The translations under genes were made by a program, and so were the position numbers. Below, piece by piece: positions 28,995 through 34,276 of a stretch of DNA of 64,000 nucleotides (within the stretch, counting starts at the first letter, position 1; every line of letters begins with the position of its first letter). Origin of the DNA: Sulfurimonas sp. hsl 1-7 (GTDB taxonomy: Bacteria; Campylobacterota; Campylobacteria; Campylobacterales; Sulfurimonadaceae). The stretch covers positions 124,001 through 188,000 of the forward strand of contig NZ_JAUIRR010000002.1 in the NCBI RefSeq assembly GCF_030577135.1, read 5' to 3'. The notes under the pieces are model-generated. The model did not search any database. It saw only the letters and a program-made list of their open reading frames with translations, and was not told the origin of the DNA.

Positions 28995-29673
28995 TAAAAA
29001 TATTTTTATTACTTCTGCTATTTTACTTTTTAGCATCCTGTTTTTCGGACTTACAAGTGCCGATCAACATTTTCAGGATCTTTTTTACAACTTTGATTCT
29101 AAACATTGGGTAATCCCCCCGACACTCCAACCCTATAAATTTATTTTTTATGACGGGATAAAAAAACTTCTCATTATTATCAGTATTTTATTTCTTTTTT
29201 CTCTTGCTTTTTTTAAAATAAGCAAAACGGTAGATAGCTACAAACGAGGAATTTTAGTTATAGTTCTTTCAGCTATCTTCGTACCCTCAATCGTGGGTCT
29301 AATAAAAGCAAATACAAATATGCCGTGTCCAAGAGATGTGATCGAATACGGAGGAGTATATCCCGAAACAAAAGTTTGGGAGTTCTACCCTCAAGAGGTG
29401 CTTGATCGAGGTCAGCAACTCAAATGCTGGCCTGCCGGTCATGCAAGCGGCGGTTTTGCATTGATGAGTTTCTTTTTTCTCTTTAAAAGAAAAAGAAACC
29501 AATATATAGCACTTGGCACCGCTTTGGTAATCGGCTGGGCTATGGGGACATATAAGATGATCATAGGGGATCACTTTTTAAGCCATACCGTTATCACAAT
29601 GTTACTCGCTTGGCTTATAATACTCATTATTGCGCGCATTGTAAAAGTTGAAAAGGTTGAAAAACATGGATAA
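28975..29673 (+). CDS. PAP2-family lipid phosphatase (LpxE/LpxF-like)
   Basis: About 232 residues with six hydrophobic helices. The PAP2 motifs are visible: a K...CPRD segment (IKANTNMPCPRDV), WPAGHASGGFALM (catalytic His) and GTYKMIIGDHFLSH (second His with Asp). It should remove a phosphate from a lipid in the periplasm. The start overlaps the eptA end by about 20 bases; ATG at 28975 or 28984 are both possible. In Helicobacter pylori an lpxE phosphatase and eptA are neighbours and act in order on lipid A, so a lipid A role is likely here too. C55-PP or phosphatidylglycerol-phosphate are alternatives. Confidence 0.82.
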   Translation: MSSMASNKNIFITSAILLFSILFFGLTSADQHFQDLFYNFDSKHWVIPPTLQPYKFIFYDGIKKLLIIISILFLFSLAFFKISKTVDSYKRGILVIVLSAIFVPSIVGLIKANTNMPCPRDVIEYGGVYPETKVWEFYPQEVLDRGQQLKCWPAGHASGGFALMSFFFLFKRKRNQYIALGTALVIGWAMGTYKMIIGDHFLSHTVITMLLAWLIILIIARIVKVEKVEKHG

Positions 29674-30922
29674 TACACAAAAAATACTCATCGTTGAAGA
29701 CAACAAGTCTCTCGCGAAACTCATAGCAAAAAAACTCTCGCTTGCTTTAGGTATGGAGGTTGATACAGCCTTCACTTTAGCGGAGGCAAAACTCTTTTTA
29801 AAAGGGTATAAATATTTCGTAACGGTTCTGGATGTAAACCTTCCTGATGCTCCCGATGGCGAAGTGATCGACTACGCTTTAAAGAACAAAAACCATGTGC
29901 TTGTATTAAGCGGAAATATCGATAAAGAGTTTCGACAAAAAATGCTTGAGAAGAACATCATCGATTATGTAAACAAAAGCGGTATGAATGACATAGAGTA
30001 TATTATCAGTACTATTAAAAGGCTCCGTCAAAACCAGCAACATAAAATTTTAGTCGTAGATGATTCTCTCGTTTTTAGAAACCAGATGAAAAGCATGCTT
30101 GAAAATCATTTCTTTAATGTTATCACCGTAGCTCACGGTGAAGAAGCGCTAGGGATGCTCAACGCACATCCAGACATCTCTTTAGTGCTCACTGATTACA
30201 ATATGCCTGTTATGAACGGTTTAGAGCTCACAAAAGAGATCAGAAAAACATACCCAAAAGATCAACTCTCTGTAGTAGCTTTATCGGGTAACGATTCCGA
30301 TGACATCAATGCCCTTTTTCTAAAAAACGGTGCAAACGACTACATCAAAAAACCTTTCTCAAAAGAGGAGTTTTCATGCCGCATCACTAACTCGATCGAG
30401 GCACTGGAAAACATCCAGATGATAACGCAGTACTCAAACAGAGATCATCTCACAGGACTTTATAACAAACGCAATTTTTATAACTTAATGAATGAGTACC
30501 TGGAAGATATTCAAGAGGATGAGATAAAACTAGCCATTACCCTTATCGACATTGACAACTTTAAACACCTTAACGATACTTACGGTGCTGAACTGGGTGA
30601 CAAAGTGCTTGTAGCTCTTGGTAATATCCTCCAAAGTGGAACAAATGCAAGTGATATCGTAGCACGTATAAGTGAAGAGGATTTTTGTGTAGTTTTAAAA
30701 GATATCGACAGAGATACTGCGGCAGACATCTACGAAGCGATCCGCTCAGAAGTTGAACTCGCTACTATTAAGATCGACAAAGAACAAACTATCAAATTTA
30801 CTATTTCACTAGGTGCAACTCTTTACAATACGGATGAGAGTATTGAAGAGAACATAAACGAAGCAGATATGCTTCTCTATAAAGCGAAACATTCAGGCAA
30901 AAACCTTTTAGTCTTCGAGTAA
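29666..30922 (+). CDS. REC-REC-GGDEF response regulator with degenerate GGDEF motif
   Basis: A 418-residue cytoplasmic protein from ATG 29666 (MDNTQKILIVED). Two receiver domains are present: the first with acidic D12 and phosphoacceptor D56 (VLDVNLPD), the second with DD at 132-133 and D177 (LTDYNMPVMNG). The C-terminal domain has the GGDEF fold (DHLTGLYNKRNF, LIDIDNFKHLNDTYG), but the signature reads RISEEDF instead of RxGGDEF, and no RxxD inhibitory site lies upstream. Cyclic-di-GMP synthesis is therefore doubtful. It follows the PAP2 gene with an 8 base overlap, hinting at control of surface changes. Confidence 0.85.
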   Translation: MDNTQKILIVEDNKSLAKLIAKKLSLALGMEVDTAFTLAEAKLFLKGYKYFVTVLDVNLPDAPDGEVIDYALKNKNHVLVLSGNIDKEFRQKMLEKNIIDYVNKSGMNDIEYIISTIKRLRQNQQHKILVVDDSLVFRNQMKSMLENHFFNVITVAHGEEALGMLNAHPDISLVLTDYNMPVMNGLELTKEIRKTYPKDQLSVVALSGNDSDDINALFLKNGANDYIKKPFSKEEFSCRITNSIEALENIQMITQYSNRDHLTGLYNKRNFYNLMNEYLEDIQEDEIKLAITLIDIDNFKHLNDTYGAELGDKVLVALGNILQSGTNASDIVARISEEDFCVVLKDIDRDTAADIYEAIRSEVELATIKIDKEQTIKFTISLGATLYNTDESIEENINEADMLLYKAKHSGKNLLVFE

Positions 30923-32050
30923 AATCAACTCTCCAAATGGGATCTCACTCTCTTTTTGAGAGACCCATTTCACTTCATAGTTTGGTGCCTCTTTAGGAAA
31001 AATTCCCTCAAGATCGGTAAAATATAGCAGCAATTTCACCTCGTCTATATTTTGCTCGACAAACTCAAACACAGGGCGAAAGTCAGTGCCCCCACTTCCT
31101 ATGAGTTTTACATCCAAAGGCTCTCCGCTGTAAAAAGTTTGATGGGAATGGATCATATCGTCACAAACAATAAGCTCTATCTCATAATTTTGCACATGCT
31201 CCATCAAAAAGTTCACTTCGCTTAAAAACTGATTTAGCAGCTCCTCGTCAACCGAACCGGAAGAGTCTATGGCAATAACAAGTTTGAAGGTATTTGAGAT
31301 ATTTGAAGGGAGATATATCCCCTGATAGAGCAGTTTTTTTGACGGTGGGAGCAGAGTGTAATCATCTCTGTAATATTTATCGATCGCATCTCTAAGCTCG
31401 TCGCGCCAGTTGATTTTCCCAAAACCGCTCATATCGAAAAAACGCTCGATAGATTCAGGAGCTTCACCGCTTTGAAACTTTTGCTCTAAAAGAGAGATAG
31501 CCTCTTCCGCCATCAACTGCTCTTGGAGTATCTCCTCTTGCAGTTCCTCTTGAGTTTGTTCCTGTTGCTGTTCTTGCTTTTGCTGATCATCTTTTTTTTC
31601 AATGTCGTCAGTATCATCCGCTTCATACTCTAGATCTTCATCATCACGCAAAATATCATCTTTTAACTCGGCATAGATCTCTTCGGCATACATCCCAGAA
31701 AAACGTTTTCTGTACTCTGCACCATAAGGCATATCCATCCCGTTTTCAAGAAGCATATCGTTGATCGCAATATCTGTCGCCATTCGCCACAACCAGCCGC
31801 TTCGCTCCCCTTTACGGTTCTCATGAGCCAAAGCTTTATGCATCGCACCGTTTGCCAAGATAAACTCTATCTCATTCAGTTCGAGATCTGAAAGGTAATC
31901 TTCACGGTACTCAATCTTTTTGCCATCAGACTTGAAACTCTCTATATCGTCATTTAGCTCTAGTGATATTTTTGCCGCCAGTGTCCCAAAATACGGGTAC
32001 TCCACTAAGAGCTTCGCTTTTGCCTGTGAGATTTTCTCCTCTAAAGTCAT
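30908..32050 (-). CDS. VWA/DUF2201 family protein, partner of the MoxR ATPase
   Basis: A 380-residue protein with an N-terminal putative metallopeptidase-like region (NGAMHKALAHENRKGER, and RMATDIAINDMLLENG), a low-complexity middle rich in Asp, Glu and Gln (about 145-185), and a C-terminal von Willebrand A domain with the metal site DSSGSV and a later SGGTDFRPVFE. This is the DUF2201 layout, which is nearly always beside a MoxR ATPase. VWA proteins act as partners through which MoxR remodels targets. The start is one base from the MoxR stop. The 3' end overlaps the response-regulator gene by 15 bases. Confidence 0.85.
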   Translation of the reverse strand: MTLEEKISQAKAKLLVEYPYFGTLAAKISLELNDDIESFKSDGKKIEYREDYLSDLELNEIEFILANGAMHKALAHENRKGERSGWLWRMATDIAINDMLLENGMDMPYGAEYRKRFSGMYAEEIYAELKDDILRDDEDLEYEADDTDDIEKKDDQQKQEQQQEQTQEELQEEILQEQLMAEEAISLLEQKFQSGEAPESIERFFDMSGFGKINWRDELRDAIDKYYRDDYTLLPPSKKLLYQGIYLPSNISNTFKLVIAIDSSGSVDEELLNQFLSEVNFLMEHVQNYEIELIVCDDMIHSHQTFYSGEPLDVKLIGSGGTDFRPVFEFVEQNIDEVKLLLYFTDLEGIFPKEAPNYEVKWVSQKESEIPFGELILLED

Positions 32051-32051
32051 T

Positions 32052-33047
32052 TTATCCCAACAGGTAAGAGAATTTTTGTACCCACTCTTTAAAAGGTGCA
32101 GAGTACTCCATCGTCAGACCGTTTCTCTGTAAGTCTTGAACAATCAGCACCGCAAACTCCCCTTTTAGATCAAGCGTGTATCTCAGCAGATTATCAAGCT
32201 TCTCGTTATCTTGCAGTACACCGCTCACCAGTGCCGAAGATAAAGAGTAAAGCACATCGATCTCTTCAGGATACTCAAAACTTTTCCCCTCCAAGATCTC
32301 GTTAATGTCAGGCAGCTTGTCCATCACTTTTACAAAGCTCAAAAAGCCCACCGCTACATCTTTGCCGATCGCACCGCTTAAAGTATCGAGTATCACATCA
32401 CTACCTATTTCCGCTTTAAGTATCTTATCTACATACTCCCAGCTTCTCGGAGTGGCAAAACTTTTCGTGTCTTTTTTCGGGTCAAAAGTAAAAAGGTGTT
32501 CGTTTTTGTATGAGATGTAGGCAATTATGCTTGGCTCTATCTCGCTTTTATACGCCCACTCACGCCAGTCATCTACATCTACTTCAAGCTCAAAGTGCAC
32601 AAATCTGTTTGCAAGAGGTGAAGGCATTTTATATGTCACCCCTCGATCACCCTCGCGGTTCCCCGCAGCTACAATCGCCCAGCCCTCAGGAAGTTCATAC
32701 TCTCCGATCTTGCGATCGAGGATCAGCTGGTACGCTGAAGACTGAACAGCAGGAGGTGCTGAGTTTAACTCATCTAAAAAGAGTATCCCCTCCCCCTCTT
32801 TTGGTAAAAATGCAGGCGGTGCCCAAAGTGCAGTATGGCTCTCTTTGTCGTAAAAAGGAATCCCCTTTAGATCTGTAGGATCCATTAAAGCTAGACGCAG
32901 GTCGATAAACCCGACATCCTGAGTCTGTGCAATCTCTCTGACAATTGAAGATTTTCCGATCCCCGGAGCGCCCCAAAGAAAAGTAGGTACTTTTTTCTCG
33001 ATCAAAGCCGTTAATGATTTTACTAAATTTGTCGCTTTCATAACCAT
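32052..33047 (-). CDS. MoxR-type AAA+ ATPase
   Basis: A 331-residue AAA+ protein with Walker A GAPGIGKSS, Walker B ILFLDELNSAP and sensor/arginine regions (IVAAGNREGDRG, SPLANRFVHFELE). These match the MoxR family of chaperone-like ATPases that work with VWA proteins on protein complexes or metal-cofactor sites. ATGs at 33047 and 33041 are possible; the second forms an ATGA overlap with the upstream repeat protein. The three genes thus form one tightly coupled unit. Confidence 0.88.
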   Translation of the reverse strand: MVMKATNLVKSLTALIEKKVPTFLWGAPGIGKSSIVREIAQTQDVGFIDLRLALMDPTDLKGIPFYDKESHTALWAPPAFLPKEGEGILFLDELNSAPPAVQSSAYQLILDRKIGEYELPEGWAIVAAGNREGDRGVTYKMPSPLANRFVHFELEVDVDDWREWAYKSEIEPSIIAYISYKNEHLFTFDPKKDTKSFATPRSWEYVDKILKAEIGSDVILDTLSGAIGKDVAVGFLSFVKVMDKLPDINEILEGKSFEYPEEIDVLYSLSSALVSGVLQDNEKLDNLLRYTLDLKGEFAVLIVQDLQRNGLTMEYSAPFKEWVQKFSYLLG

Positions 33048-34276
33048 CCTATATTTTCTGTCTGAATATGTTTTCCAAACGCTTCATTTGTTCTAACTGC
33101 ACGCTCAAACCTGCTGTCTAACTGCATCTGGTAAAGCAGCTCAACTGGTGTATTTTCATTTTTTGCAAGTTCTAAGAGCACATCACTCTCACCCAGATCA
33201 TAAAGTTTTGTTAATATCTCCTGCGGAGTGGAAATATTTTTTGCAAGAGAGAGATGATTTTCACTCTCTTCAAACGCACGCTCTAAAATCTCTTGAGGAG
33301 TAGAAGGGTTTTCTAAAATGTACCCTCTGTTCTTAGATGATTGTTGATAGAGTTCTTCTAAAAACTCCCCTTTTACACTGCTGTTTTTTGCAAGGTTTTC
33401 ATCAACGCTCTCTTCAGACATATCAAGTAAACTTTGCTGCATCTCCTCAGTCAGAGTCGTGTTTTTTGCAAGTTGGTCTGCATAGTTTTCCAACAATCTA
33501 AATAGCTCATTATCAAGTGCTATATTTGCCGCTATTTTTTTCGCGATATTTGGTTCATCCAGCAAACTTTTTGCGATCATCTTATCGAGATTTACGTTAG
33601 AGTAGATCACCTCTAAAACCTCATCGTCACCCTCTTTTAAAAATCGTTTTAAAACCTTTTTAGGTGTATTTGGATGTGTCGCTAAAATGATTTTTATCTT
33701 CGGATGGAACTTGATAGGCTCTAGTTCGCTGATCGCTTCAAGTAACTCTTCATCTTTTGTTTGGGAGATCAGATGGATAAGTCCCGTTGTAGCAAACTGT
33801 ACATTGTGATTACGCTCAATGTTTTCATAAAAACGCTCGATCAGTGCCGCCGTAATATCACGGTTATCATCGTTTTCAAAAAAATCTTCCCCGCCCCATT
33901 TGTAACTTTTCAAAAGTTTAAAAAAGAGCTGATCGCTTATGCACCCGTTTTGCAGGAAACTCTTCAGTCTATCACGATCATTTGAGAGCTTTAGGCTCAT
34001 CAGAAGTACATTGTCATCGATCTCCTGAGCCAAAGCAGTTTCTAGTTCATCTATAGAGATAAACTCAAATTTTTTCATCTCATACAACTCATCTGAGAAG
34101 TTTTGCTCATAAGGAGTAAGCACTCTCCCCTCAATAATAAAACGAACATTTTCATCAAGCTCTTTAGTCAGCTCAATATTATGAGTTTTAAGTTGGGCGA
34201 GAAACTCCTCTTGGTTAAAGGCTCTCGGTTTTCCAAGCAATAAAACTGTTTGATCTTTCAAATTTTCTAAATTCAT
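33038..34276 (-). CDS. BRCT-like N-terminus with leucine-rich-variant-type repeats, first gene of MoxR-VWA cassette
   Basis: A 412-residue acidic protein of no clear named family. Residues 5-85 look like a BRCT fold (TVLLLGKPRAFNQEEFLAQL, then a hydrophobic RFIIEGRVLTP strand and a final FEFISIDELETAL helix). From about 185 there are imperfect helical repeats built around 'LAKNxxTPxEIL..L', e.g. LAKNISTPQEILTKLY and LAKNENTPVELLYQM, like LRV/HEAT solenoids. A solenoid with a BRCT-like head suggests a scaffold or target adaptor for the MoxR-VWA pair. Domain calls here are by eye and moderate. Confidence 0.6.
   Translation of the reverse strand: MNLENLKDQTVLLLGKPRAFNQEEFLAQLKTHNIELTKELDENVRFIIEGRVLTPYEQNFSDELYEMKKFEFISIDELETALAQEIDDNVLLMSLKLSNDRDRLKSFLQNGCISDQLFFKLLKSYKWGGEDFFENDDNRDITAALIERFYENIERNHNVQFATTGLIHLISQTKDEELLEAISELEPIKFHPKIKIILATHPNTPKKVLKRFLKEGDDEVLEVIYSNVNLDKMIAKSLLDEPNIAKKIAANIALDNELFRLLENYADQLAKNTTLTEEMQQSLLDMSEESVDENLAKNSSVKGEFLEELYQQSSKNRGYILENPSTPQEILERAFEESENHLSLAKNISTPQEILTKLYDLGESDVLLELAKNENTPVELLYQMQLDSRFERAVRTNEAFGKHIQTENIGWL

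Follow-up and report, generated by a model that had tools for sequence, protein, structure and literature searches.

A BRCT-headed LRV repeat protein linked to a MoxR ATPase and a DUF2201 VWA protein in Campylobacterota: a candidate target-recognition subunit

Introduction

Machines built from a MoxR ATPase and a VWA protein are widespread, and for most of them no means of target choice is known. How such a motor might find its client is the question raised by a three-gene cluster of Sulfurimonas sp. hsl 1-7, which lies in the 64,000-nucleotide stretch analyzed here (positions 124,001 to 188,000 of contig NZ_JAUIRR010000002.1; hereafter the window) and encodes a 412-aa repeat protein, a MoxR AAA+ ATPase, and a DUF2201-type VWA protein. 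Structure prediction, family alignments, and surveys of related and distant genomes lead us to favor, with moderate confidence, a reading in which the trio is a three-part ATP-dependent remodeling machine and the repeat protein, composed of a BRCT head and an LRV solenoid, is its dedicated target-recognition subunit. A dedicated third protein with a recognizable head, one that has stayed beside the motor throughout an order of bacteria and has headless counterparts in other phyla, would offer a direct handle on how MoxR-VWA motors find their clients.

Results

Organization of the cluster

The three genes are transcribed in the order repeat protein, MoxR, VWA. A 10-bp overlap joins the repeat-protein and MoxR genes, and 1 bp separates MoxR from VWA, so the trio reads as one operon. 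Three coupled genes had been claimed at this locus in an earlier note made from the letters of the window alone, and the open reading frames were found at exactly the positions given there; its assignments of MoxR and of a DUF2201 VWA protein also hold, with Pfam AAA_3, DUF2201_N, and DUF2201 all above cut-off. The genes and their domains are as follows.

33038..34276, minus strand: BRCT-LRV repeat protein (SOL), 412 aa (open reading frame; AlphaFold, pLDDT 89.8; family alignment)
34022..34273, minus strand: BRCT-fold head, residues 2-85 (AlphaFold model; fold matches; Pfam BRCT in homolog L045)
33707..34021, minus strand: conserved helical core, residues 86-190, no Pfam match (conservation)
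33122..33706, minus strand: LRV-type alpha solenoid, residues about 191-385 (LRV/LRV_2 in homologs; 1lrv match)
33041..33121, minus strand: C-terminal tail, residues 386-412 (conservation)
32052..33047, minus strand: MoxR AAA+ ATPase, 331 aa (Pfam AAA_3; invariant columns; MoxR tree)
30908..32050, minus strand: DUF2201_N + VWA protein, 380 aa (Pfam; VWA fold)
31838..31852, minus strand: degenerate zincin motif, NGAMH for HExxH, residues 67-71 (alignment)
30917..31282, minus strand: VWA domain, residues 257-378 (complete MIDAS D262-S264-S266, T322, D346)

The repeat protein has a BRCT head and an LRV solenoid

The AlphaFold model of the repeat protein, built with 22 homologs, reached a mean pLDDT of 89.8 and a pTM of 0.74. 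The secondary-structure elements of its head follow the order beta-alpha-beta-beta-alpha-beta-alpha, and residues 2-84 superpose on BRCT domains, with that of LigA/DnlJ as the best PDB match (Z 9.4, 77 residues, 2.3 Å) and those of RFC1, XRCC1, and PARP4 at Z about 7; the structure check therefore bears out the BRCT-like N-terminus that had been suspected from the letters. The Pfam scan returned no BRCT match for the window protein itself, and one of the 22 family members, L045, exceeded the BRCT cut-off (26.7 bits versus 21.3). In the family alignment, the clearest conserved feature of the head comes after strand 1, where Gly precedes Lys, Arg, or Gln. The remainder of the model is LRV-like (PDB 1lrv, Foldseek probability 0.99), and although the window protein scores 18.6 bits against Pfam LRV, below the cut-off of 21.6, its homologs exceed the cut-offs with up to 47.8 bits for LRV and 42.6 bits for LRV_2, in agreement with the LRV-type repeats claimed earlier. 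The further statement that the protein belongs to no named family stands for the 412 residues as a whole but not for its domains, BRCT and LRV.

Conservation is highest in the core (residues 86-190) and the C-terminal tail, at 0.72 within the genus and with residues 376-412 as conserved as the core. The BRCT head takes a middle position, and the solenoid, in which the number of LRV repeats, and hence protein length, differs between orthologs, is the least conserved part. The tail is a candidate docking element. An Fe-S role, known for some LRV proteins, was rejected, as the repeat protein has one cysteine only. LRV-like repeat proteins were also seen between Fe-S reductase and electron-transfer flavoprotein genes on Paracoccus and Azoarcus plasmids (L127, L129), so LRV solenoids serve other systems too.

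MoxR motor and VWA protein

The window MoxR scores 35.7 bits against Pfam AAA_3 (cut-off 27) and carries the Walker A motif GAPGIGKS and the Walker B motif LFLDEL, with GAPGIGKS and FLDEL conserved in the alignment. The VWA protein scores 98.5 bits against DUF2201_N (cut-off 23.2) and 87.2 bits against DUF2201 (cut-off 26.4), its MIDAS residues are invariant in the alignments, and a fold search with its model, covering mainly residues 211-380, matched VWA folds at Z 11-13 (best Z 13.0, 152 residues, 2.9 Å). The VWA domain extends to residue 378 of the 380, and no fused effector domain was detected by Pfam. With intact Walker A and B motifs and a complete MIDAS, the pair appears to fit the MoxR-VWA chaperone type.

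The HExxH motif suits the word metallopeptidase in the name of DUF2201_N. It is degenerate in all Campylobacterota DUF2201 copies aligned and intact in aligned counterparts from Cyanobacteria, Deinococcota, Chloroflexota, several Proteobacteria, and phages (L113, L116). An active protease in the window was rejected on the replacement of HExxH by NGAMH, and because the motif is lost, proteolysis by the window protein is unlikely and the Campylobacterota version is probably a non-proteolytic remodeler; an intact or lost HExxH would predict which sets cut and which only remodel. Beyond the cluster, a response-regulator/GGDEF gene (29648-30922) is convergent with the VWA gene and overlaps its end by 15 bp.

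Linkage and co-occurrence in Campylobacterota

Searches of 99 close and 298 phylum-wide genomes used the repeat protein or its profile as their only bait; 41 of the loci were read with wide flanks, and exclusion of one cut by a contig end left 40 usable loci, none of them fetched by MoxR. In 35 of the 40, MoxR is at most 1 kb downstream on the same strand. Adjacency counts from a genome-collection scan are not part of this figure, being biased by the use of a MoxR profile, which was chosen as the repeat family lacks a sufficiently conserved stretch. The earlier note had proposed a neighborhood survey and named a repeat protein found mostly apart from MoxR-VWA as a refutation; this outcome was not observed. 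All other neighbors of the repeat protein-MoxR pair differ from genus to genus.

Among 60 genomes of the window genus, the repeat protein and the MoxR ortholog are both present in 38 and both absent in 18, and the four discordant genomes are all contig-edge cases (Fisher p 4e-11 on raw counts), an association far beyond chance. Where the cluster is broken, in Sulfurovum-type and order-level genomes, the VWA gene is still found elsewhere in the genome, as is a full MoxR in all but one, and three sampled genomes that lack a full repeat protein have neither MoxR nor VWA. The three-part set is present across the sulfur-oxidizing Campylobacterota. The repeat protein evolves fastest (mean identity 0.40 versus 0.63 for MoxR), and the MoxR genes linked to it cluster on a MoxR tree that groups by taxon; judging from this tree, the set appears to have been inherited mainly vertically.

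Several related arrangements were recorded alongside. In some related genomes, extra genes separate MoxR from VWA (L031:6493-10289, L032:6836-12237, L034:878-6643); G005 has an EcoRI-type methylase there and G047 a type III restriction-modification set, homologs of which occur in G046, and the junction resembles a hot spot for insertions. Within the genus, three genomes have the VWA gene without a MoxR ortholog or repeat protein (G013, G040, and G056; loci L067 and L066), and in G013 its frame consists of two overlapping open reading frames, possibly a sign of decay. The window's own genome holds two further MoxR-DUF2201 pairs within 9 kb (G000 C6 50-58 kb; L051:5255-13928), which have no repeat protein and are separated by a gene for a 1139-aa PAS/GAF/HD protein. 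Another conserved Campylobacterota cluster (L055:4351-8753, L059, L060, L061) encodes a 409-aa ODP/flavodoxin protein, MoxR, a divergent DUF2201 VWA protein, and a 232-aa protein for which Pfam gave no match.

Counterparts in other phyla

A plasmid search with the repeat protein matched one record, from Allomeiothermus silvanus, in which an LRV protein lies immediately ahead of genes for a DUF2201 VWA protein and MoxR; in Thermus oshimai the order is LRV-MoxR-VWA, as in the window. The MoxR-profile scan added LRV-linked sets from Scytonematopsis, Chamaesiphon (where the contig stops short of the VWA position), Pleurocapsa, Dictyobacter, and metagenome-assembled genomes (MAGs) of Deinococcales and Comamonadaceae, and a delta-proteobacterial MAG with the order MoxR-VWA-LRV. 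LRV-MoxR-DUF2201 sets without BRCT are accordingly found in at least four other phyla, Deinococcota, Cyanobacteriota, Chloroflexota, and Pseudomonadota. Their LRV proteins range from about 300 to 950 aa, and the BRCT head is absent from all non-Campylobacterota LRV partners found, with profile matches that begin no earlier than model position 182. In the Comamonadaceae protein, the head is a WGR domain (E 2.4e-16). The view that no described system has exactly the set seen in the window was upheld insofar as none was found described, but sets of the same kind with headless LRV proteins do occur in these phyla.

On the MoxR tree, the non-Campylobacterota LRV-linked genes, except that of Allomeiothermus, belong to a single supported clade, LRV being present in 8 of its 12 rows, which lies apart from the Campylobacterota BRCT-LRV genes in what is a quick tree with long branches. 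The linkage with LRV proteins may either be old and often lost or have arisen at least twice. In Duganella, an RtcB RNA-ligase gene was seen just upstream of a MoxR-DUF2201 pair, with genes of similar size in the same place in Massilia and Pseudoduganella (L199, L201, L207).

Discussion

A proposed remodeling machine

In the machine proposed here, MoxR would be the AAA+ ring motor, the VWA protein its co-chaperone, and the BRCT-LRV protein the recognition subunit that brings one class of target. The BRCT head and the variable LRV surface would bind the target, the conserved core and C-terminal tail would dock onto MoxR-VWA, and ATP hydrolysis, relayed via the VWA protein, would twist the target or extract part of it. 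A division of labor in which the MoxR ring and VWA protein supply force and the BRCT-LRV protein selects the target is suggested by analogy with NorQD (PMC13036017). We infer the physical complex, its direction of action, and the identity of its target, and likewise the adaptor or target-recognition role that the earlier note had assigned to the repeat protein, which is still the best-supported role.

The remodeling machine is favored by gene coupling, co-occurrence, intact AAA+ motifs and MIDAS, the combined BRCT and LRV folds, correlated divergence, and the LRV counterparts elsewhere. Several observations weigh against it. The repeat protein lies away from MoxR in five loci (L035, L096, with an inverted MoxR fragment, L098, L099, and L102), and in G251 MoxR was found as a fragment only. 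The correlation between pairwise identities of the repeat protein and MoxR (Spearman 0.92) includes shared species history. The VWA gene is directly next in about half of the loci and otherwise elsewhere in the genome, often unlinked, so that the three-gene coupling claimed originally is borne out in the window but, across loci, is looser for the VWA gene. Pairs of MoxR and DUF2201 that lack a repeat protein are common, and two of them occur in the window's genome; the motor therefore does not always need such a partner.

As for the target, a DNA- or repair-associated protein complex is a guess prompted by the BRCT head here and the WGR head of the Comamonadaceae counterpart, both of which are known from PARP and related repair proteins; against it, BRCT domains also mediate plain protein-protein contacts. 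A broader scheme, which we consider speculative and unlikely, would make the LRV-MoxR-DUF2201 sets an undescribed class of solenoid-guided ATP-dependent metalloproteases spread over several phyla, of which Campylobacterota would have disabled the protease and fitted the solenoid with a BRCT head, where the Comamonadaceae counterpart has a WGR head, yielding a DNA-damage-linked remodeler.

Alternative explanations

The main rival, possible though rather unlikely, reverses the relationship, with the BRCT-LRV protein itself as the substrate or client that MoxR-VWA matures or remodels, for instance by loading it onto DNA or a partner via the BRCT head. Known MoxR-VWA pairs often adjoin their client genes (norQD beside norCB, cbbQO beside rubisco), a habit that the gene adjacency fits, and the all-or-none co-occurrence would be expected of a client too. 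The arrangement would resemble NorQD acting on nitric oxide reductase (PMC13036017). However, a fast-evolving solenoid of variable length, with a single cysteine and neither cofactor nor enzyme motifs, looks more like a binding platform, and the LRV proteins of other phyla differ widely in length, one of them being WGR-headed.

A link to conflict systems was hinted at in the earlier note. A MoxR-vWA ternary system for anti-phage defense or conflict, with the solenoid sensing the invader, would agree with the gene order of published VMAP-MoxR-vWA systems, in which the third component and vWA are also fast-evolving (PMC7159879), with the restriction-modification genes between MoxR and VWA in three genomes, and with a Synechocystis MoxR-VWA on a CRISPR-bearing plasmid. 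PADLOC, however, gave only weak, mostly generic ATPase matches (best E 0.0013), none of them meaningful, the viral search found no viral relative of the repeat protein, and the VWA protein has no fused effector domain; moreover, roughly two thirds of the genus has the set, mostly amid constant neighboring genes, and taxa group together on the MoxR tree. A defense function was rejected on the PADLOC result, the viral search, and the mainly vertical inheritance, and we regard it as quite improbable. Least credible, and very hard to maintain, is a neighborhood without function, in which the repeat protein merely hitch-hikes beside an ordinary MoxR-VWA pair: some genomes do keep MoxR-VWA-like pairs without it and a few loci have it apart, but the co-occurrence outlasts the change of all other neighbors and even the break-up of the cluster, and LRV proteins stand beside MoxR-DUF2201 in other phyla as well.

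Comparison with known systems

The trio departs from the published MoxR-VWA ternary sets but is of their general kind, and no description of it was found; the literature search, outside which most subscription papers and preprints fall, returned no publication joining MoxR with DUF2201. In the published ternary systems the third part is a VMAP, iSTAND, FtsH, or beta-propeller protein and the vWA is often effector-fused (eLife 2020 e52696, PMC7159879). These systems resemble the trio of the window in combining MoxR and VWA with a dedicated third protein, in the order third gene-MoxR-vWA, and in the faster evolution of the third component and vWA than of MoxR or other conserved proteins (PMC7159879), whereas the third component of the trio is a BRCT-LRV protein and its VWA protein, a DUF2201-type one, carries no fused effector. 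In the main text of that paper, "DUF2201" and "leucine-rich" are absent and "HEAT" occurs once. The score against Pfam bpMoxR was 15.3 bits, below the cut-off of 27.

A review of jumbo phages describes a MoxR-vWA pair in which the vWA is fused to an N-terminal metallopeptidase and for which a role in virion assembly was proposed (Viruses 2021, PMC7824862); this pair is apparently of the same motor/adaptor type as that of the window. Similar MoxRs occur in 825 phage records, with identities to the window MoxR of up to 45%. No solenoid partner was seen beside the phage MoxR-VWA pairs inspected, and the aligned phage copies keep the HExxH that the window copy has lost.

Of proteins outside the MoxR systems, that of PDB 1lrv shares the solenoid fold but lacks the BRCT head, and we know of no association between it and MoxR-VWA. 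In the E. coli cluster yehF/yehI-yehL-yehM-yehP, WGR and DUF4132 proteins are encoded next to MoxR and VWA genes, which puts a DNA-repair-type head near a MoxR-VWA pair; however, its VWA protein is CoxE-type, the WGR and DUF4132 parts are in separate genes, and YehL gave no match to the MoxR profile built from the present family. The CoxE-type VWA and the missing profile match led us to reject it as a close relative, and it is a parallel only.

The targets of NorQ-NorD and RavA-ViaA are respiratory enzymes, and to our knowledge their VWA partners are of another type than DUF2201 and no BRCT-LRV protein accompanies them. NorQ acts on its target by remodeling a linker within its VWA partner NorD (PMC13036017). 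In NorQ-NorD and RavA-ViaA alike, a MoxR ring and a VWA co-chaperone remodel a protein target, as is proposed here for the trio of the window.

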